Source: Marinobacter nauticus (GTDB taxonomy: Bacteria; Pseudomonadota; Gammaproteobacteria; Pseudomonadales; Oleiphilaceae). From it: a DNA stretch of 64,000 nt. The notes under the pieces were generated by a model that was not told where the DNA came from, ran no database searches, and was given only the letters and a program-made list of their open reading frames with translations. The position numbers and the translations under genes are program-made. Of this stretch, positions 6,822-63,926 are shown piece by piece; positions within the stretch are counted from its first letter, which is position 1, and each line of letters opens with the position of its first letter. The DNA lies in NCBI RefSeq assembly GCF_003634635.1, contig NZ_RBJB01000005.1:1-64000 (forward strand), given 5' to 3'.

Positions 6822-7415
6822 ATGAGTAATGGCGACGTGAGCCAAGGCCGGCGCCGGTTTCTGATCGGTGCTACGTCCGTGGTAGGTGGTGTCGGCGTCG
6901 TCGGTGCAGCCGTTCCTTTCGTAGCGTCCTGGAACCCCAGTGCGAAAGCGGAAGCGGCCGGTGCACCGGTAACCGTCAATATCAGCAAAATCGAACCGGG
7001 TCAGCAGATCACCGTTGAGTGGCGAGGTAAGCCTGTTTGGATTATCCGCAGAACGGAAGAAATGCTGGCGAATATCGAGAAGCTCAATGACGCAGTGAAG
7101 GACCCGATGTCGGAGGCGCCTCAGCAGCCTTCGTATATCCAGGGTCCCTTGCGCGCGATCAAGCCAGAGTTCGGTGTCTATGTGGGGCTCTGTACCCATC
7201 TGGGCTGCGTGCCCTCCTACCGGCCAGAGGTTGCGCCGGCTGATCTGGGTGAAAACTGGCTTGGTGGGTTGTTCTGCCCGTGTCACGGTTCCCGCTATGA
7301 CATGGCCGGTCGGGTTTATGAGGCTCAACCCGCGCCGCTGAACCTTGAGGTTCCGCCGTACCGGTTTGACGATGATGTGACCATGACCATTGGTCTTGAT
7401 CCGGAGGCCGCGTGA
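6822..7415 (+). CDS. petA: ubiquinol-cytochrome c reductase, Rieske iron-sulfur subunit
   Basis: 197 residues. A twin-arginine signal (GRRRFLIG, 9-16) with a hydrophobic stretch forms the uncleaved membrane anchor. The Rieske [2Fe-2S] site is complete: CTHLGC (C124, H126, C129) and CPCHGS (C152, C154, H155). It takes the first electron from quinol at the Qo site of complex III and passes it to cytochrome c1 in the periplasm. The strong GGGAGAAAACCATA site precedes the ATG. It overlaps petB, forming the classic petABC operon. Confidence 0.97.
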   Translation: MSNGDVSQGRRRFLIGATSVVGGVGVVGAAVPFVASWNPSAKAEAAGAPVTVNISKIEPGQQITVEWRGKPVWIIRRTEEMLANIEKLNDAVKDPMSEAPQQPSYIQGPLRAIKPEFGVYVGLCTHLGCVPSYRPEVAPADLGENWLGGLFCPCHGSRYDMAGRVYEAQPAPLNLEVPPYRFDDDVTMTIGLDPEAA

Positions 7416-8647
7416 TGCAAAAGCTGATTAACTGGGTAGACGAGCGTCTGCCAATCGTTGAGGCCTGGAACAAGCACCTGGCCAAGTATTACGCGCCGAA
7501 GAACTTTAACGTCTGGTATTTCTTCGGTTCACTGGCAATGCTGGTGCTGGTCAACCAGCTAGTGACCGGTATCTGGCTGACTATGAGCTATAACCCGTCT
7601 GCCGAGGGGGCGTTTGCCTCGGTGGAATACATCATGCGTGATGTGGAGTGGGGTTGGCTGCTGCGATACCTGCACTCGACCGGCGCATCTGCGTTCTTCG
7701 TGGTGGTGTATCTGCACATGTTCCGTGGTCTCATGTACGGTTCCTACCAGAAGCCGCGGGAATTGATCTGGATTTTCGGTATGCTGATCTACCTGGTGCT
7801 GATGGCAGAAGCCTTCATGGGCTACCTGCTGCCCTGGGGCCAGATGTCATACTGGGGTGCCCAGGTAATCGTTAACCTGTTTGGTGCGATTCCGGTCATC
7901 GGTGAAGATCTGTCTCTGTGGATTCGTGGTGACTATCTGATCTCCGGTATCACCCTGAACCGTTTCTTTGCCCTGCACGTGGTTGCTCTGCCAATCGTTC
8001 TGCTGGGTCTGGTTGTTCTTCACATCCTGGCGCTGCACGAAGTGGGTTCTAACAACCCCGACGGCATCGAAATCAAGAAGAACAAGGATGAAAACGGTAT
8101 TCCGAAAGACGGTATTCCGTTCCACCCGTATTACACCGTTCACGACCTGCTGGGCGTGGGTGTGTTCTTCTTCATCTTCTTCATCGTTGTCTTCTTCTTC
8201 CCGGAGATGGGCGGTCTGTTCCTGGAAAAACCGAACTTTGAACCGGCCAACGCCCTGAAGACACCGGATCACATCGCGCCTGTCTGGTACTTCACGCCGT
8301 TTTACGCGATGTTGCGGGCGGTGACGGTAGACTTTATGGGGCTGCCGGCTAAGTTCTGGGGTGTTGTGGTCATGGGTGGTGCGATTGCGATTCTGTTCGT
8401 GTTGCCTTGGCTTGACAGAAGTCCTGTCCGCTCAATCCGCTACAAGGGCTGGTTGAGCAAGATTGCCCTGGCAATCTTTGCGGTGAGCTTCGTAATCCTT
8501 GGCTACCTTGGACTGGTTCCCGCAACAGAAGGTCGCACGACTGTCGCTCAGATTCTGACAGTGTTGTACTTCCTCTACTTCATTCTGATGCCGTTCTACA
8601 CGCGCATGGAGAACACCAAGCCAGTTCCAGAGAGGGTGACAGGATAA
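7415..8647 (+). CDS. petB: ubiquinol-cytochrome c reductase, cytochrome b subunit
   Basis: 410-residue integral membrane protein with about nine transmembrane segments. The heme-ligand histidine pairs fall in HSTGASAFFVVVYLHMFRG and in FALHVVALPIVLLGLVVLH, and the Qo-site PEWY region is represented by PVWYFTPFYAMLRA, with Val in place of Glu. GTG at 7412 is possible, but the ATG at 7415 overlaps the petA stop in the usual coupled fashion and is preferred. Its ATG-to-stop overlap with petC shows tight coupling of the complex III genes. Confidence 0.96.
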   Translation: MQKLINWVDERLPIVEAWNKHLAKYYAPKNFNVWYFFGSLAMLVLVNQLVTGIWLTMSYNPSAEGAFASVEYIMRDVEWGWLLRYLHSTGASAFFVVVYLHMFRGLMYGSYQKPRELIWIFGMLIYLVLMAEAFMGYLLPWGQMSYWGAQVIVNLFGAIPVIGEDLSLWIRGDYLISGITLNRFFALHVVALPIVLLGLVVLHILALHEVGSNNPDGIEIKKNKDENGIPKDGIPFHPYYTVHDLLGVGVFFFIFFIVVFFFPEMGGLFLEKPNFEPANALKTPDHIAPVWYFTPFYAMLRAVTVDFMGLPAKFWGVVVMGGAIAILFVLPWLDRSPVRSIRYKGWLSKIALAIFAVSFVILGYLGLVPATEGRTTVAQILTVLYFLYFILMPFYTRMENTKPVPERVTG

Positions 8648-56376: not shown

Positions 56377-56529
56377 GGTAGGCGGTTCTCTCCCTAGGTT
56401 ATCGGATAAAGTTAAAGACCAGAGGATAACAGATTCGACGCCGCTCGCATGGCTGTTTTCCCGAGTGGTGATTACAATACGTAACATGTGATGCCCGTTT
56501 TTTATCCAGCAGTTCAGGGGAGTCTGCCT

Positions 56530-57783
56530 ATGGGCGGCCAGGAAAGCCTGCCGTTACGTCGTCTTAAAAGTTTTCAGCCTTTGGGCCGTCTGACTGACGA
56601 TCAGCTTGTGCTGTTGGCCAGCCGGGCTGAGCGCAGAACCCATGGACCAGGGCAGAGGGTCATGGAACGGGGCGTTCGGGATGGGCTGGATTATTTTCTG
56701 ATTTCCGGCGCCGTGGAGCTGCAATCGGTTGATGGTCGTAAGTCGACCATTGAGGCTGAGACCGACAAAGCCCTCAATCCAGTAGCCCGCCTGCAGCCCC
56801 GGATGTATGACGTTACTGCGGTCAAACCCTGCGAGTTTCTGGTGATCGAGCAGGAAGTGCTGAACCAGATGCTGCGGGCGGCGCCCATTTCCCAGGTGGA
56901 AATGGACTCGTCGGATCACGACGAAGACCAGAGCGAAGAGCACCATCTGTTGATGGAGTTCTACTCTGAGCTGCGGTCCAATCAAGTCCAGTTGCCGAGT
57001 GTGCCGGATGTGGCCTGGAAAGTCCGGCGGGTGGTGGATAGGGATGACTCGTCGGCCACCGAGGTCGCTTCCGCGGTGTCGGCAGACCCGGCCATGGCGG
57101 CCAAGCTGGTACGTTCCTGCAACAGTCCGCTCTATCGCGGTTTCAGCGATGTCCGCAATGTGCGTGAGGCTGTGGTTCGGCTGGGCATGCGTACCACCCG
57201 GCAATTAGTGACGGTGTTCGCCATGCGCGAGGTGTTCAAGACCCGTCGGGCGGCATTGCAGAAAGAAATGGAGCAGCTATGGCGCCATTCCCGGGAGGTG
57301 GCAGCGCTGTGCTGGGTGCTGGCGGACCACGCCACACGCATTGATCCTGAGGAAGCCTTACTGGCGGGGTTACTGCATGATATCGGGGTGGTTCCTGTGC
57401 TGGTGCAGGCCGAGCACCACGTCAATCTGTTCGCCGATGACAGAAACCTGCACCATGCCATCGACGAACTCCGCGCCGATGTCGGGTGCGCGGTACTTGA
57501 GAACTGGGCGTTCCCGAAAGCCTTCGTGGAGGCGGTGCGCCATGCGGAAGACTGGCATCATGAGTGCCGGGAAACTGCGCCCCAACTGGTTGATGTGGTG
57601 ATTGTTGCCCAACTGCATTCGATGATTGGCTCCAGCCAGAATGAGGGGCTTCCAGCCTTTGATCAGGTGCCGGCATGGCGCCGGCTGGGCGAGCTGGAAC
57701 TGAATGCTTCCAGAAGTCTGCAACTGCTGAGTGAGGCCCGGGAACGGGTGGATGAAGTGCAGAAGCTTCTTTCGATTCGATAG
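56530..57783 (+). CDS. HDOD-domain protein with degenerate cyclic-nucleotide-binding-like N-terminus
   Basis: 417 residues. N-terminal domain (about 12-125) has the cNMP-binding fold pattern ([14 protein letters not shown]) without the usual phosphate-binding Arg cassette, so nucleotide binding is doubtful. The HDOD domain (about 150-360) shows [38 protein letters not shown] and [14 protein letters not shown] proteins act in signalling and regulation of motility or stress, often without catalytic HD activity. ATG 56530 has CAGGGGAG upstream; starts at 56488 or 56491 are weaker. Confidence 0.87.
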
Positions 57784-57812
57784 ACCAAGCCGCAGCAGGA
57801 GCCTGGCCGGTA

Positions 57813-58409
57813 GTGACTGAAAAACTTATGAACGTACCGCTGTTTCCATTGAATTCAATCATCCTGCCCGGGGGGCGAATCCCCCTGCAGCTGTTTGAAC
57901 CCCGTTATATCGACATGCTCACCCGCTGCCTGAAGGAGGATCGCGGCTTTGTGGTGGTTTTGTTGCGGGAAGGGGCCGAGACCGAAGCCCGGGCCTCGTT
58001 CTACGACATCGGCACCTACGTCCGGATCATTGACTTCCAGCAACTGGATAACGGTTTGCTGGGTATCACCGTTGAGGGCGATTACAAGGTTTCCGTCATC
58101 CGTAGCTGGCAGCAGGAGGATGGTCTCAATGTTGGCGATGTGGAGTGCCTGATTGCCGAGGCCGAGAGTGACGTGCCGGAACGCTACCATGAGTTGCCCT
58201 CGGTTTTGCGGGCACTGTTCCGGCATCCGGTGGTCAAGGATCTGGAAATGGATGTGGATTATGACGATGCCCGCCATATTGGCTGGAGGCTGACCGAATT
58301 GCTGCCGCTGGATAAGCAGGAAAAACAGCGGCTGGCGGAATTACAGGATCCGCTTGAACGGCTTGACCGACTGCAACAGTTGCTGGAAGCGCTGGAACAG
58401 GGCGGCTGA
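57813..58409 (+). CDS. LON N-terminal (substrate-binding) domain protein
   Basis: 198 residues forming a stand-alone LON_substr_bdg domain: VPLFPLNSIILPGGRIPLQLFEPRYIDML near the N-terminus, then a beta-rich core and a helical end. No ATPase or protease part. Function unknown; probably binds proteins or peptides. GTG 57813 has AGGAG 12 bases upstream; ATG 57828 is possible. Follows the HDOD gene by 29 bases, so co-transcription is likely. Confidence 0.88.
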   Translation: MTEKLMNVPLFPLNSIILPGGRIPLQLFEPRYIDMLTRCLKEDRGFVVVLLREGAETEARASFYDIGTYVRIIDFQQLDNGLLGITVEGDYKVSVIRSWQQEDGLNVGDVECLIAEAESDVPERYHELPSVLRALFRHPVVKDLEMDVDYDDARHIGWRLTELLPLDKQEKQRLAELQDPLERLDRLQQLLEALEQGG

Positions 58410-58412
58410 CGG

Positions 58413-59864
58413 TTATAGCTGGGGTGCGTAACTCACCACGGCAGTTTCCCAGTTACCCATCATGTACATGGCCACGAAAGCCAGCCAGCCGATTCCGGCG
58501 GCCCAGGTCAAGCTGTCCGGGCTCAGCGCCACCCTGTCATATCGGCTGTAACTGGCCCGTGTCGCACCGGTGATCGCGAGCCCCAGAAACAGGCCTCCAA
58601 GCACATCCGTGAACCAGTGCACGCCGAGATACAGTCGGCTCAGGGCTACCGGCAGCAAGGGTAGTGACAGAAACAGGTAATGTTGCCAGCGCTGGTGTTT
58701 GCGGTTTTCGCCCGCGACGAAGCTGGCTGCCAGGGTAACCAGCACGGTCATACCGGCCGTATGCCCACTGGGGTAAGCGCCGGAGCTTGGTGCCGAGAGC
58801 ACCTGATCTGGCCGGCTGATGCCGATACCTGCTTTCAGCAGCCAAACGCTGATCCCGGTGATGGCTGCTGCAGTGGCAATATGAATGGCGGCTGCGTAGT
58901 AGCCCCGGAACGCCAGCAACAGAACGGCAAACACGGCGGCAGCGAACAGGACCGGGGGATCTCCCAGCAAGGTGAACGCTACCATCGGAAGATCCAGCAG
59001 GGGTTGGCGCAGAGCGCCGAACCATTGCAGCACTTGCTGGTTCATAAAGGCCAGCTCATCACTGACTCCGACCAACTGTGCCAGCCCAAGAAACAATGCT
59101 AGCGAGGTGGCTGTCATTAGCAGTGAGGGCAGAGGAAATTCCCCCTGCTGAGCCGGCCGCTCGCTGCTGTACAGACGCCAGAACCGGTGTGTTGCGTCGT
59201 ATTGACTCATCCGGGATTCCAGCCATTGATAGAGCCAGCTCCCTTCACCAACGCCGAGCCGAATCCGCAAAACAATCAGATAGACAACCACCAGCGCCGC
59301 ACCACTGATCGCAAGTACCAGATAGAAATGGGGTGGGGGTTTGATCTCGCTGCCCATAGCCGAGCCTACGAAAAATCCCGGCAGGATATACACCAGGGCC
59401 CAGCCCGTGGCTGATAGCAGATTGAAGGTGAGAAAGCGCTGCCACGACATGGTCAGCGCACCGGCAATCAGTGGAATGACCGGGCGTATCGGCCCAACGA
59501 AACGGCCAATGACCACGCTTTTTCCTCCGTGGGCGCGAAAAAAGCTCTCTCCGCGGGCAATGAGCCCCGGGTATCGACTGAATGGCCAGACGGTATTCAG
59601 ACGCCCCTTGAACAGGCGGCCGATGGCGAAGCTGATCGCATCCCCCGCCACGGCGCCAAGGCCGGCCCACAGCAGGGCGTCGGACAGGGGCAGGCCGCTC
59701 TTGCCAGCGAGCGCGGCAAATGCGAACAGTAAAGCCACTCCGGGCACGATGATGCCGGCCACCGCCAGCGATTCTATCAGCGCGGTCAGGAACAGGGCGG
59801 CAATCAGCCAGCCCGGATTGGCGGCGACCCAGGAAGTAACGTCGGTGAGCCAGGTCGCGGTCAT
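58413..59864 (-). CDS. DedA-PAP2 fusion membrane protein
   Basis: 483 residues in two parts. DedA domain (about 1-205): ALIESLAVAGIIVPG and GRFVGPIRPVIPLIAGALTMSWQRFLTFNLLSATGW (phospholipid/undecaprenyl-phosphate flippase-type fold). PAP2 phosphatase domain (about 245-465) with a full active site: K344-x6-RP (351-352), PSGH (365-368), SR(409-410)x5H416x3D420. It could dephosphorylate undecaprenyl pyrophosphate or phosphatidic/phosphatidylglycerol phosphate and move the product. Translationally coupled (ATGA) to the GGDEF gene at 59861. Confidence 0.93.
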   Translation of the reverse strand: MTATWLTDVTSWVAANPGWLIAALFLTALIESLAVAGIIVPGVALLFAFAALAGKSGLPLSDALLWAGLGAVAGDAISFAIGRLFKGRLNTVWPFSRYPGLIARGESFFRAHGGKSVVIGRFVGPIRPVIPLIAGALTMSWQRFLTFNLLSATGWALVYILPGFFVGSAMGSEIKPPPHFYLVLAISGAALVVVYLIVLRIRLGVGEGSWLYQWLESRMSQYDATHRFWRLYSSERPAQQGEFPLPSLLMTATSLALFLGLAQLVGVSDELAFMNQQVLQWFGALRQPLLDLPMVAFTLLGDPPVLFAAAVFAVLLLAFRGYYAAAIHIATAAAITGISVWLLKAGIGISRPDQVLSAPSSGAYPSGHTAGMTVLVTLAASFVAGENRKHQRWQHYLFLSLPLLPVALSRLYLGVHWFTDVLGGLFLGLAITGATRASYSRYDRVALSPDSLTWAAGIGWLAFVAMYMMGNWETAVVSYAPQL

Positions 59865-60859
59865 GCCTTGACGGGCTCTCCCGGGCTGAACCAGGCAGAA
59901 GCCGCTCCCCGCTTCCGCGCTTCGAGCATGGCGGTGACGGCGCGGTCACGCAATGAATGGGTGCTGGTGTCGCCGTTGCCCCGGGTGGTGCAGCCGAGGC
60001 TGACCGAGATCTTGCCAACCTGGGCCCAGTCATGTTCGCTGAGGGTTCTGCGAATGCGCTCTGCGATGACCCGGACCCCTTCCTCCGGCGTAAACGGCAG
60101 GATCAGGAAAAACTCCGAGCCGTTGATGCTGTAGAGCGAATCCCCGGCCCGGATGATTTCAAACAGGGTACCTGTGACGTCGCGCAGCAGCGTTTGCAGG
60201 CCGGCCTTGCCGTGCAGGTCGCGAATTTCGTCGGCATGGTCGATGTTCAGACTGACGACCGACAATGGGTGGCCGGTGGCAATGGCACGACTGATTTCCT
60301 TCTGCAGTGTCTCATCCAGAAAACGGGCGTTATGGGCTCCGGTGGCGGGGTCGGTAATGGCAAGATCCTGGGCCGATTGCGCCATATGGTCGTAGTGCCA
60401 GATATACAGGGCGGTCACTGCCAGCAGTGCTATAAAGCCGGCTGTCGTCATCAGGGCAGTGTCTATGGATGTCGACAGCCAGGTGACAGCCAGCACCGGC
60501 ACCAGCAGCATCGCTGAGAGCATTAGTCCATGCCGCAGGGGCAAAATCAGCAGGTTCAGCGAAAGCAAAGGCATGGCCCAGTGGCTGATGCCCGGGGCAT
60601 CCATTGTCAGTACCGCTGCAACCAGACCACTGTTAAGGCCGGCGAGAATGACCAGGTGGCCGGGCGCGGAGAGCTGCTGGCGACGGCATAGCCAGGTATA
60701 GACCAGGCCGGCAACCAGTAAGGCGGTCATGGCCAGGGCCAGATAGAACAGCTGGTAAAAGCCGTAACGCAGGTTCTGCAGTGCCAGCGCGGCGGTGAAC
60801 AGCGCCGCCAGGCCGTAGCCAAAGGCGTGGGTCCAGGTTCGGAGTCGGGTCTCGGTCAT
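59861..60859 (-). CDS. membrane protein with degenerate GGDEF domain (RxxD kept)
   Basis: 332 residues: about six membrane helices (13-156), then a GGDEF-fold domain (165-325). The catalytic motif is NGSEF (246-250) in place of GG(D/E)EF, and the metal-binding DxD region is LNIDHADE, so diguanylate cyclase activity should be lost. The inhibitory-site motif RAGD (237-240) is kept exactly five residues upstream, the spacing used for c-di-GMP binding. Overlaps both neighbours by ATGA. Confidence 0.87.
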   Translation of the reverse strand: MTETRLRTWTHAFGYGLAALFTAALALQNLRYGFYQLFYLALAMTALLVAGLVYTWLCRRQQLSAPGHLVILAGLNSGLVAAVLTMDAPGISHWAMPLLSLNLLILPLRHGLMLSAMLLVPVLAVTWLSTSIDTALMTTAGFIALLAVTALYIWHYDHMAQSAQDLAITDPATGAHNARFLDETLQKEISRAIATGHPLSVVSLNIDHADEIRDLHGKAGLQTLLRDVTGTLFEIIRAGDSLYSINGSEFFLILPFTPEEGVRVIAERIRRTLSEHDWAQVGKISVSLGCTTRGNGDTSTHSLRDRAVTAMLEARKRGAASAWFSPGEPVKA

Positions 60860-61878
60860 TGCGTTGCCTCCCTGCCGGAAGGTTCAGTTAGTCCGCTGGC
60901 CTCTGGGGGTACCGGGTTGCTGTAGGTCTGGGTCCGGTTACCGCCCTGCTGTTGGGCGCGCCGCAGGGCGTTGGCAACGCTCTGTTGCAGGCTGTCGGCA
61001 TCGTCGCCGATATTGAGCCCGGCCACGCCGGTACTGACCGTAAGCTTAAGGCCGTGCGAATCCATCAGCGTGCACAGGCCGCGGCGAACCTGTTCTGCAG
61101 TGCGGGCTGCCTCGGCAGTATTGGCGCCGGGGAGAATCACCAGAAACTGAAGGTCGGCCACCCGGTAATAGGTATCGAAATCCCGAAGCTGAGAGTGCAG
61201 GTAGCGGCCGATGCGTGGCAGAATCGCGCGAATGTCTTCGTCCGGATCGACGTCGCTCAGGTGAGTATCCAGCCCGATCATCATCACCGACATGTTGGTG
61301 CCTTCCCGCTCGCTGCGCTGTATTTCCTTGTGCAGGTCAGCTGACAGGTATTCCCGGCTGGCTGCCTGGGTAAGCTCATCGGTACGGCGCAGGGGCGCAA
61401 GCTGCCGGGATTTGTACTCGCGCATGAACACCAGAATGGCCCCGAGGAGCGTGGTCAGTACCAGTGCCGTCATCATCTGGTGCCGGTCCGGGAGGGCTAT
61501 CGCCCACTGGGTTCCGGCTAGCACCAAGAAAATGAAGATGACAGTAACAATGGCTGCCAGGTAGACCGGCGCCATGGCGAACAGTACCAGCGGCAGGGCA
61601 TAGAGCCAGTGGCTGAGTGGCCAGGGGCCCAGCCAGATGGCCGATGCGAGAGCCAGAACGAGGGCTGTCAGAAAGAATGCCCGTAATTGTGGCCAGGGGG
61701 CGTTTTGATGTGCTTTGCCCTGATGGGTGCCCGCCAGGCAAAGACCAGCTGCAGCTGCCGCTGCCACTGCCGCCAGCAGTTCCCCCATGAACAGACAGAA
61801 CCCGGTGGTCAGGCCAAAGGCAATAAACCCGCTGCGGGAAAACTTGCCGGGAAGAAATTTTTCGGCGGTTTGGGGCAT
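60856..61878 (-). CDS. membrane protein with degenerate GGDEF domain (RxxD kept)
   Basis: 340 residues: several membrane helices (about 18-152), then a degenerate GGDEF domain (165-330). GGDEF is replaced by ADLQF (241-245) but the surrounding strand LVILP and helix AEAARTAEQVRRGL are typical. RDFD (232-235) stands five residues upstream as an I-site match. ATG 61878 with AAAGGA upstream is preferred over ATG 61902. First gene of the three-gene operon; its 3' end overlaps the next gene. Confidence 0.85.
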   Translation of the reverse strand: MPQTAEKFLPGKFSRSGFIAFGLTTGFCLFMGELLAAVAAAAAAGLCLAGTHQGKAHQNAPWPQLRAFFLTALVLALASAIWLGPWPLSHWLYALPLVLFAMAPVYLAAIVTVIFIFLVLAGTQWAIALPDRHQMMTALVLTTLLGAILVFMREYKSRQLAPLRRTDELTQAASREYLSADLHKEIQRSEREGTNMSVMMIGLDTHLSDVDPDEDIRAILPRIGRYLHSQLRDFDTYYRVADLQFLVILPGANTAEAARTAEQVRRGLCTLMDSHGLKLTVSTGVAGLNIGDDADSLQQSVANALRRAQQQGGNRTQTYSNPVPPEASGLTEPSGREATQ

Positions 61879-61923
61879 TGAGTCTGTCCTTTGCTGGCGC
61901 ATCCATTTGAACCTGTGCAGCGC

Positions 61924-61929
61924 TATAAT
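61924..61929 (+). promoter_or_regulatory. candidate -10 box for proA
   Basis: Consensus TATAAT about 85 bases before proA; no good -35 at 16-18 bp. A TTGAAC at 61907 is only 11 bp away, too close. Confidence 0.35.
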
Positions 61930-62014
61930 AGTCGTTTGGGGTGCGGACTTGAAACGGGAAAGGTAAAGTAACCCTCCCGTTTTGGAATCAGCTTGCAGAA
62001 TTAAGGGTAAATCA

Positions 62015-63271
62015 ATGGATGTAGCAGCCTACATGACGGAGCTCGGCCAGCAGGCCAGGGCCGCTTCCCGGGAAGTCGCTCGGTCCTCCACTGCCGTGCG
62101 GAATCAGGCACTTCTGGCCACCGCCGCCGCCCTGGACGCCGCCAGATCCGAGCTTGCCACGGCTAACAGCAAGGATCTGGAGCGTGGCCGGGAAAACGGA
62201 CTCGACAGTGCCATGCTGGATCGCCTGGAGCTTACCTCTCAGCGCATCGATGCCATGATTGAGGGTTTGCGCCAGGTGGCTGCGCTCCCGGACCCGGTGG
62301 GTGTGATTACCGATATGACCTATCGCCCGTCGGGTATTCAGGTAGGCAAGATGCGGGTGCCGCTGGGGGTAATCGGTATCATTTACGAGTCGCGGCCCAA
62401 TGTCACGGTCGAGGCTGCCAGTCTGTGCCTGAAATCCGGCAACGCGACCATTCTGCGTGGCGGCTCCGAGGCGATCCACTCCAACCAGGCCATTGCCCGT
62501 TGTCTCAAACAGGGTCTGAGCGAGGCGGGGTTGCCGGAAACTGCAGTCCAGGTGGTCAGCACTACCGACAGGGCCGCTGTGGGTGAGCTGATTACCATGC
62601 CTCAGTTCGTGGATGTGATTGTTCCTCGCGGCGGTAAGGGCCTGATCGAGCGTATCAGTCGGGACGCCCGCGTGCCGGTAATCAAGCATCTGGATGGTGT
62701 GTGTCATGTTTACATCGACAGCCATGCCGACCCGGAGAAGGCGCTGAAGGTAGCGGTTAATGCCAAAACCCAGCGTTACGGGACCTGCAATACCATGGAA
62801 ACCCTGCTGGTTGATGACGAGGTGGCGGAGGACTTGTTGCCGCTGCTGGCGGAACAGTTCCGAAGCAAAACCGTGGAGTTGCGGGGGTGCCGGCGCACCT
62901 GTGCCATTCTCGGAGATATTGTCGAAGCCACTGAGGAAGACTGGCACGCGGAATACCTTGCCCCCATTCTGGCGGTGAAGGTGGTTGACGGACTGGATGG
63001 TGCCATTGAGCATATCAATCGCTACAGCTCCCAGCACACCGACAGCATTATCACCGAAAACTACACCCGTGCCCGTCGGTTCCTGACGGAGGTGGATTCC
63101 AGCTCTGTCATGGTCAATGCCTCAACCCGTTTTGCTGATGGCTTCGAGTATGGCCTGGGCGCTGAGATTGGTATTTCCACCGATAAGATCCATGCCCGTG
63201 GGCCGGTCGGTCTGGAAGGGCTTACCTCACAGAAGTACGTGGTGTTCGGTGACGGCCATATCCGGACCTGA
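62015..63271 (+). CDS. proA: glutamate-5-semialdehyde dehydrogenase (gamma-glutamyl phosphate reductase)
   Basis: 418 residues. NADPH-dependent second step of proline synthesis. [31 protein letters not shown] and the active-site region [16 protein letters not shown] (catalytic Cys in GTCNT) are conserved, as is [28 protein letters not shown] near the end. ATG 62015 with AAGGG upstream is used; the frame is open from 61982. proB is not adjacent. nadD follows after four bases. Confidence 0.97.
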
Positions 63272-63275
63272 CACC

Positions 63276-63926
63276 ATGCATGTGATCTACGGCGGTACCT
63301 TTGACCCGATTCACCACGGTCACCTCCGGCTGGCACTGGAAGTGTCCGAGGCGCTGGAGGTGAGCCGGGTACATCTGGTGCCCAGCCATATCCCTCCGCA
63401 TCGGGGTAGCACCGGAGCCAGTTCAGCGCAGCGTCTGGAGATGATCCGGCAGGCCATCGCCGGCGAACCCGCGCTGGCGCTGGACGAGCAGGAGGTGCAC
63501 CGGGGCGGAGCCTCATACACCGCCGATACATTGCGCCAGCTTCGGGCCGAGCTGGGGCCGGATTGTCCTCTGGTGATGGTGGTCGGTACCGACGCTTTCT
63601 CATCGTTTGACCGCTGGCGCGAGTGGCAGGAGATCCCCGGGCTTGCCCATATCGTGGTGGTGCGCCGCCCCGGCTCGGAACTGCCGGTGGGCAGCGAGGC
63701 AGCGCAGCTGGTAGCAGAGCGCTGTGTGGGTTCAGCGTCGGAGCTGCATTCGCGGCCGGCGGGCCTGGTACTGGAGCTGGCGCCGCCGTTGCTGGACATT
63801 TCCGCCACGGGTATTCGACGGCGTATCGCGGCGGGTCGGTCGCCACGCTACCTCACCCCGGATGACGTATGCCAGAGTATCCGTGCCTGGGGGCTCTACG
63901 GTGCCCGGCCCGTTGAAAGCCAATAG
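63276..63926 (+). CDS. nadD: nicotinate-nucleotide adenylyltransferase
   Basis: 216 residues. Adenylates nicotinate mononucleotide in NAD synthesis. GGTFDPIHHGHLRLA (residues 6-20) carries the nucleotidyltransferase HxGH-type motif; PSHIPPHRG, GTDAFSSFDRW and ISATGIRRRIAAGRSPRYL (the ISSTxIR block) follow. The frame is open from 63117 inside proA; ATG 63276 is the family start. The proA-nadD pair is usual in gammaproteobacteria, normally followed by rsfS beyond the window. Confidence 0.97.
   Translation: MHVIYGGTFDPIHHGHLRLALEVSEALEVSRVHLVPSHIPPHRGSTGASSAQRLEMIRQAIAGEPALALDEQEVHRGGASYTADTLRQLRAELGPDCPLVMVVGTDAFSSFDRWREWQEIPGLAHIVVVRRPGSELPVGSEAAQLVAERCVGSASELHSRPAGLVLELAPPLLDISATGIRRRIAAGRSPRYLTPDDVCQSIRAWGLYGARPVESQ

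Follow-up and report, generated by a model that had tools for sequence, protein, structure and literature searches.

Paralogous degenerate GGDEF proteins encoded beside a DedA-PAP2 enzyme in Marinobacter carry complementary parts of an I-site and may together form one c-di-GMP receptor

The window analysed here is a stretch of 64,000 nucleotides from contig C4 within the 3.98 Mb genome of a Marinobacter relative, and we describe three genes on its minus strand: two that encode GGDEF proteins, called G1 and G2, followed by one that encodes a fusion of a DedA (VTT) domain to a PAP2 domain (Table 1). An earlier reading of the letters without database searches (the sequence-only reading) had described four-base overlaps at both gene junctions, and this was confirmed. 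The arrangement is widespread: among 75 related loci, 74 of them labelled Marinobacter and one Halomonas, the three genes were matched in this order in 74, the remaining locus being cut by a contig end, and the stop codon sits in ATGA in 61 of 74 loci at the G1-G2 junction and in 67 of 74 at the G2-DedA-PAP2 junction. The proposed G1 start at position 61878 also held up, as this methionine is conserved among relatives, whereas an 8-codon extension from 61902 is not. As described below, both GGDEF domains have lost their catalytic residues, and the residues of an I-site, a binding site for cyclic dimeric guanosine monophosphate (c-di-GMP), are divided between the two proteins.

Table 1. Coordinates of the genes, domains and motifs in the window.
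Feature	Position	Strand	Remarks
G1 (first GGDEF gene)	60856..61878	minus	conserved start; GGDEF fold by AlphaFold2 and Foldseek
G2 (second GGDEF gene)	59861..60859	minus	Pfam GGDEF; AlphaFold2 model; paralog of G1
DedA (VTT)-PAP2 fusion gene	58413..59864	minus	Pfam VTT and PAP2
G1 stop / G2 start overlap, ATGA (4 bases)	60856..60859	minus	
G2 stop / DedA-PAP2 start overlap, ATGA (4 bases)	59861..59864	minus	
G1 GGDEF domain, apparently dead	60934..61383	minus	Pfam residues 174-323
G1 R199 (numbering of the 348-residue open reading frame)	61306..61308	minus	aligns with WspR R198
G1 RDFD, primary I-site motif	61174..61185	minus	retained in f1 and f7 but lost from f36
G1 degenerate A-site ADLQF	61144..61158	minus	
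G2 RAGD, primary I-site	60140..60151	minus	RxxD in 155/155 G2
G2 R268, further I-site arginine	60056..60058	minus	position taken to be that of PleD R390
G2 degenerate A-site NGSEF	60110..60124	minus	positions 1-4 vary between genera
VTT/DedA domain	59376..59747	minus	Pfam residues 40-163; E31, R121, R127 kept; D51 equivalent is V43
PAP2 domain	58551..58886	minus	Pfam residues 327-438; motifs K-x6-RP, PSGH and SR-x5-H-x3-D intact

At a Pfam cut-off of E 0.001, G1 and G2 each contained a GGDEF domain (E 4.8e-16 and 2e-20, respectively) and no other domain. The AlphaFold2 models, with predicted local distance difference test scores of 83 (G1) and 90 (G2), consist of six long helices, in G1 running from H3-31 to H132-168 at the N terminus, followed by the GGDEF domain, and on the basis of the model the six G1 helices may be read as membrane helices. 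The best 50 Foldseek matches shown for each model were all GGDEF structures, none of them informative on the membrane domain. A profile comparison aligned G1 with G2 across 324 columns (E 7e-38), showing the two proteins to be paralogous along most of their length.

The sequence-only reading had placed an RxxD motif, the primary I-site, in front of a degenerate A-site in both proteins, and we found RDFD in G1 and RAGD in G2, each exactly five residues upstream of ADLQF and NGSEF, respectively. Conservation was evaluated in 154 G1 and 155 G2 sequences from three families, f1 (which holds Marinobacter), f7 and f36, counting sequences identical over the last 230 residues once. L111 and L102 were removed as duplicates of L067 and L071, and the count omits the G2 of L021 (deletion) and L045 (contig end) and the G1 of L094 (contig end) and of L087; the L087 G1, read separately, has both the R199-type arginine and RxxD. 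No intact A-site was present in any of the 309 sequences (0/154 G1, 0/155 G2). At the position that we take to be that of the metal-binding aspartate, Asp was found in 1 of 154 G1 and 2 of 155 G2, the window proteins having G (G1) and N (G2). Neither G1 nor G2 thus shows the GG(D/E)EF A-site and presumed metal-binding aspartate of an active diguanylate cyclase, and both domains look catalytically dead as judged from these residues.

The retention of RxxD was then compared with that in the same genome, which encodes 49 GGDEF domains, 34 of them fitting the pattern [GA]G[DE][EDQ]F of an intact A-site and 15 degenerate. RxxD was present in 30 and the second arginine in 31 of the 34 intact domains; among the 15 degenerate domains, which include G1 and G2, these numbers were six and three, with both features in two. 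In the control made up of the other 13 degenerate domains, RxxD was found in 4/13 and the second arginine in 2/13. A lone RxxD is weak evidence, and conservation across species is strong evidence. Among genus representatives (13 G1, 14 G2), RxxD is invariant in both proteins and R268 is invariant in G2, the invariant columns of the 155-column domain, RxxD included, numbering 36 in G1 and 27 in G2. For the same representatives, A-site positions 1 to 4 and the presumed metal position were each outranked in conservation by at least 89 of the 155 columns, and the fifth A-site position, F, was conserved in 12/13 G1 and 13/14 G2.

An operon confined to this strain would have refuted the sequence-only reading, but the G1-G2-DedA-PAP2 set is not strain-specific: comparable sets are present in three families of the order. 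Of the 61 genomes sampled from the family, 55 gave a match to the DedA-PAP2 protein (P0003), and these span 14 of 16 genera. In all 28 family loci fetched in this way, G1 and G2 were matched as well and the gene order was the same, one G1 being cut by a contig end. A single in-match stop codon was seen in the G1 of genome G015 and in the G2 of G013. An order-wide search matched 111 of 293 genomes, many through the DedA part only, and 39 further neighbourhoods were inspected: DedA-PAP2 is preceded by two genes that stand where G1 and G2 would be, both in the two f7 genomes and in five of the six f36 loci, and the G2 protein passed the Pfam GGDEF cut-off in all three cases tested from these families. 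In f36, G2 was matched in 56 of 81 genomes and 16 of 24 genera. The locus was examined in 50 of the 56 (two of the other six, G186 and G288, are among the neighbourhoods inspected above), and the G1-G2 pair was found in 48 of the 50, of which 47 run on into DedA-PAP2, so that the pair was demonstrated in 14 genera. No G1 or DedA-PAP2 match was found beside G2 in L251 and L252 (G632 and G676), the sole matches of their f36 genera. The f36 genes are supported as orthologs of G1 and G2 because profile comparison with f1 gave better values for counterparts (G1-G1 E 9e-16, G2-G2 E 6e-26) than for the single crossed comparison (f1 G2 against f36 G1, E 9e-6).

WspR holds an intercalated dimer of c-di-GMP through R242, the arginine of RxxD, and through R198, which a symmetry-related GGDEF domain supplies; the R242A and R198A proteins are essentially nucleotide-free on purification (PMC2270323). 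WspR R198 aligns with R199 of G1 and with A194 of G2. An arginine occupies this position in all 154 G1 (104/104 in f1, 2/2 in f7, 48/48 in f36) and is absent from 150 of 155 G2 (present in 3/105, 0/2 and 2/48, respectively). RxxD is present in every G2 (105/105 f1, 2/2 f7, 48/48 f36), and the position of R268, presumably the counterpart of PleD R390, holds R in 153/155 G2 (105/105 f1, 48/48 f36) and K in the two f7 sequences. R or K at this position was thus found in 155/155 G2 vs 16/154 G1, the G1 sequences with R being 5/104 in f1, 0/2 in f7 and 3/48 in f36. The combination of a kept RxxD with a lost A-site across orthologs, which characterises degenerate-GGDEF I-site receptors, is therefore general for G2 (155/155); for G1 it is general in f1 and f7 (106/106; 104/104 and 2/2) and absent from f36 (0/48). 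The expectation of the sequence-only reading that RxxD would be conserved among orthologs thus stood for both proteins within their own family and did not stand for G1 of the distant family f36.

A complete I-site is found in neither G1 nor G2 of f36 alone (apart from two G2 that keep the second arginine), but is found in the pair. Among 24 f36 sequences of each protein, G1 has nine invariant columns, which include the R199-type arginine and a Glu at the place of the RxxD aspartate, and G2 has 19, of which three are RxxD and R262, the equivalent of R268. As a separate observation, the RxxD Asp of f36 G1 is replaced by Glu in 48/48 sequences while the Arg is lost in 41/48, and this conserved Glu is likely to serve another function. 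The sequence-only reading had proposed two receptors; because the I-site pieces are divided between G1 and G2, one shared site fits better.

We infer such a shared G1:G2 site from the complementary I-site residues and from the fact that WspR R198 comes from a neighbouring domain; G1 and G2 would accordingly make up a heterodimer clamped by c-di-GMP rather than two separate receptors. Our preferred reading, to which we assign a probability of roughly 0.6, is that G1 and G2 act together as a c-di-GMP receptor, a dead, duplicated inner-membrane pair. In the proposed mechanism, G1 and G2 are a duplicated pair descended from signal-making enzymes and can no longer synthesize c-di-GMP. G2 would contribute RxxD and R268, which make up the primary half of the site, and G1 would provide R199, the arginine that WspR takes from the neighbouring GGDEF domain. 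An intercalated c-di-GMP dimer could then clamp the cytoplasmic domains of G1 and G2 together, and clamping may alter the packing of the membrane helices and so send a signal to the envelope, with the DedA-PAP2 lipid-phosphate phosphatase as a plausible, non-obligatory output. A more specific version, in which the two dead cyclase paralogs form an obligate heterodimer with a divided I-site, c-di-GMP is the glue that gates the transmembrane bundles, the phosphatase is one of several outputs and the full f36 site exists only at the G1:G2 interface, stands at about even odds in our judgement.

Several points weigh against this reading. The G1 of f1 and f7 keeps both RxxD and R199, and G1 homodimers could therefore also bind. 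The second-position arginine is kept in three f1 and two f36 G2 sequences. The G1 of f7 and f36 was below the Pfam GGDEF cut-off in the four proteins tested (one f7 protein at E 0.016, three with no match), and for this reason it is identified by its position and by profile comparison. In L021 (Marinobacter sp. EhC06, 7029-7787), G2 is 252 instead of 332 residues long, about 80 residues short; roughly residues 194-273 are missing, RxxD included, while the frame is open and DedA-PAP2 is matched in full, and either a genuine loss or an error of assembly could account for the shortening. The residue counts are counts of sequences and not of independent events on a tree, and their control consists of the genome's 13 other degenerate GGDEF domains.

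In addition, the retention of RxxD or of the arginine might be due to folding or dimer contacts. This bears on a different explanation, in which the G1-G2 heterodimer has a structural or scaffolding task, binds no c-di-GMP and uses RxxD and R199 as salt-bridge or interface residues. It would agree with the other invariant residues of both dead domains (they are among 36 and 27 invariant columns) and with the uniform Glu for Asp in f36 G1, which suggests a retained non-canonical role. The residues kept are, however, known c-di-GMP ligands, split as a composite site needs, and most of the other degenerate GGDEF domains of the genome lack them, so that we regard a scaffold as a less likely explanation, with about one chance in four left to it in our estimate.

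The third gene encodes a protein with an N-terminal DedA and a C-terminal PAP2 domain, the architecture of PA4011 of Pseudomonas aeruginosa. It has all three of the PAP2 motifs (C1-C3) that we take to be catalytic in phosphatases of this type. The nine positions scored in these motifs were all intact in 53/53 f36 proteins, and each was intact in 71 to 74 of the 74 proteins of the genus set; the motifs are intact in most f1 and f36 relatives and missing from some relatives in other families. At the class level, outside the order, most of the listed DedA-PAP2 matches fall within open frames some 660-740 residues long, and a further C-terminal domain is probably present in them.

Four residues, E39, D51, R130 and R136 in YghB numbering, are essential in the studied DedA flippases of COG0586 (PMC10127716). 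Equivalents of E39, R130 and R136 are kept in the window protein but that of D51 is V43, and membership in the COG0586 flippases was rejected; in all aligned DedA-PAP2 fusions this position is V, I, A or T, bar one with a gap. PA4011 is needed for the normal emergence of colistin resistance and is unable to replace the undecaprenyl-phosphate (C55-P) flippase PA4029 (PMC12893004). Under the name papP, it is described as PhoP-regulated and as protecting the outer membrane under polymyxin, and it forms with PA4010 a pair of methylpurine-glycosylase and DedA-PAP2 genes under PhoP control (PMC7916210). As far as these reports go, the P. aeruginosa counterpart probably functions in envelope protection and not in C55-P flipping. 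Because the D51 equivalent is missing and PA4011 cannot replace the C55-P flippase, we think the window protein more likely to be a lipid-phosphate phosphatase that helps to maintain the envelope than a C55-P flippase, and the undecaprenyl-phosphate flipping suggested by the sequence-only reading is doubtful.

The sequence-only reading had also suggested that the GGDEF proteins control this enzyme, and this was not supported in the form proposed. In genera g10 and g13 (L254-L258) the LON gene directly follows G2, the locus lacks DedA-PAP2, and the I-site pattern is retained in all five G1-G2 pairs. The pair is carried by four of the five sampled g10 genomes (the fifth, 68% complete, gave no strong G2 match) and by the one g13 genome, which is 88% complete; a genome-wide P0003 search yielded nothing in g13 and, in g10, no more than weak DedA-like matches (E 4e-6 to 5e-10). 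The f36 genome G669 (L259) likewise has G1-G2 and no P0003 match. Conversely, DedA-PAP2 occurs without G1-G2 in the examined f5, f6, f20 and f34 loci, where no pair was found by tblastn on all loci and reading of open reading frames on part of them, and the DedA-PAP2 paralog in L112 has no GGDEF neighbours. In L140 and L150 (f20), a methylpurine-DNA glycosylase gene and DedA-PAP2 lie at the same proA/LON position in place of G1-G2. Because each occurs without the other in sampled genomes, the pair and the enzyme, although partners in most sampled loci, are each dispensable to the other.

These results bear on the explanation in which G1 and G2 would each be a separate c-di-GMP receptor and would serve chiefly to regulate DedA-PAP2, transcribed together with them. 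The three-gene order (74/75 related, 28/28 family and 47/48 f36 loci) and the tight junctions speak for it, but the complementary I-site losses argue against independent receptors, and the loci in which either the pair or the enzyme stands alone argue against the enzyme as the main target; we consider it improbable. Control of DedA-PAP2 as one output of a jointly acting G1-G2 receptor is plausible, though in our estimate clearly less likely than not.

The persistence of the pair without DedA-PAP2 would also agree with a role like the one proposed for Escherichia coli CdgI, in which G1 and G2 would form mixed dimers with active diguanylate cyclases, or soak up c-di-GMP as a sink, and would not act on a membrane enzyme. 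The 49 GGDEF domains of the genome speak for this, as does CdgI, a dead GGDEF protein whose I-site is intact: it binds c-di-GMP and has several GGDEF domains as interaction partners (PMC5635695). Such a role would leave unexplained both the long-lasting coupling to DedA-PAP2 and the division of the site halves within the pair, and we judge it the least likely of the explanations considered. A shared G1:G2 receptor remains the reading that we prefer.

The operon has proA, nadD, LON-domain, HDOD-type and ilvD genes as neighbours (named from their translations). proA is divergent upstream in 22 of 28 family loci; it was unmatched in the five g4 loci, this being a genus of the family, and the stretch fetched for the last locus stops short of it. 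An HDOD-like region, recognised from the translation alone, lies in a plus-strand gene at 56488-57783 of the window and recurs near the operon in many family loci. No RNA family was found by Rfam at the gathering score in 56400-63300, and no sigma-70-like promoter was found in 58300-62100, where three terminator-like sites equalled the shuffle mean of 3.1. The window contains 22 PhoP-like repeats (at most two mismatches) vs a shuffle mean of 13, a number reached in 1 of 100 shuffles, and none of these lies upstream of G1.

Dead GGDEF domains are common (15/49 by pattern in this genome). Duplication followed by complementary loss of I-site halves predicts a full site in the pair and in neither half alone; if this is what took place, the locus shows a route from an enzyme homodimer to a heterodimeric receptor. 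It may also tie c-di-GMP to envelope lipid-phosphate metabolism through DedA-PAP2, a protein whose P. aeruginosa counterpart plays a part in polymyxin tolerance.

Dead GGDEF receptors and composite I-sites are already known. In the literature searched (titles and starts of abstracts, with most subscription journals outside its scope), no case was found in which an I-site is divided between dead GGDEF paralogs encoded by a single operon. G1 and G2 resemble PelD, CdgI and BcsE in having a degenerate A-site with RxxD retained. PelD has a GAF domain before its dead GGDEF domain, and its gene lies in a pel polysaccharide operon. Unlike PelD-type receptors, G1 and G2 contain no GAF or REC domain by Pfam; with GGDEF as the only Pfam domain, helices before the GGDEF fold in the AlphaFold2 models and no pel operon neighbours, membership in the PelD type was rejected. 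BcsE is a biochemical precedent, with a composite I-site that raises the affinity (dissociation constant from about 2.5 uM to 140 nM), but its second half-site is a REC* domain in the same chain and not a second dead GGDEF protein (PMC11470070). The third gene product shares the DedA-PAP2 architecture of PA4011/PapP (PMC12893004, PMC7916210). The f20 loci resemble the PA4010-PA4011 arrangement, and no GGDEF pair was seen there; PA4010-PA4011 is PhoP-controlled (PMC7916210), whereas no PhoP-like box precedes G1. The closest likeness to the proposed site is with WspR and PleD: the GGDEF fold, an RxxD that precedes the A-site by five residues, and a second arginine (WspR R198) provided by another GGDEF domain (PMC2270323). 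WspR and PleD, however, are active enzymes, and the WspR site lies between copies of one protein, whereas G1 and G2 appear to be both dead and membrane-bound, with the halves of the site placed on two paralogs.

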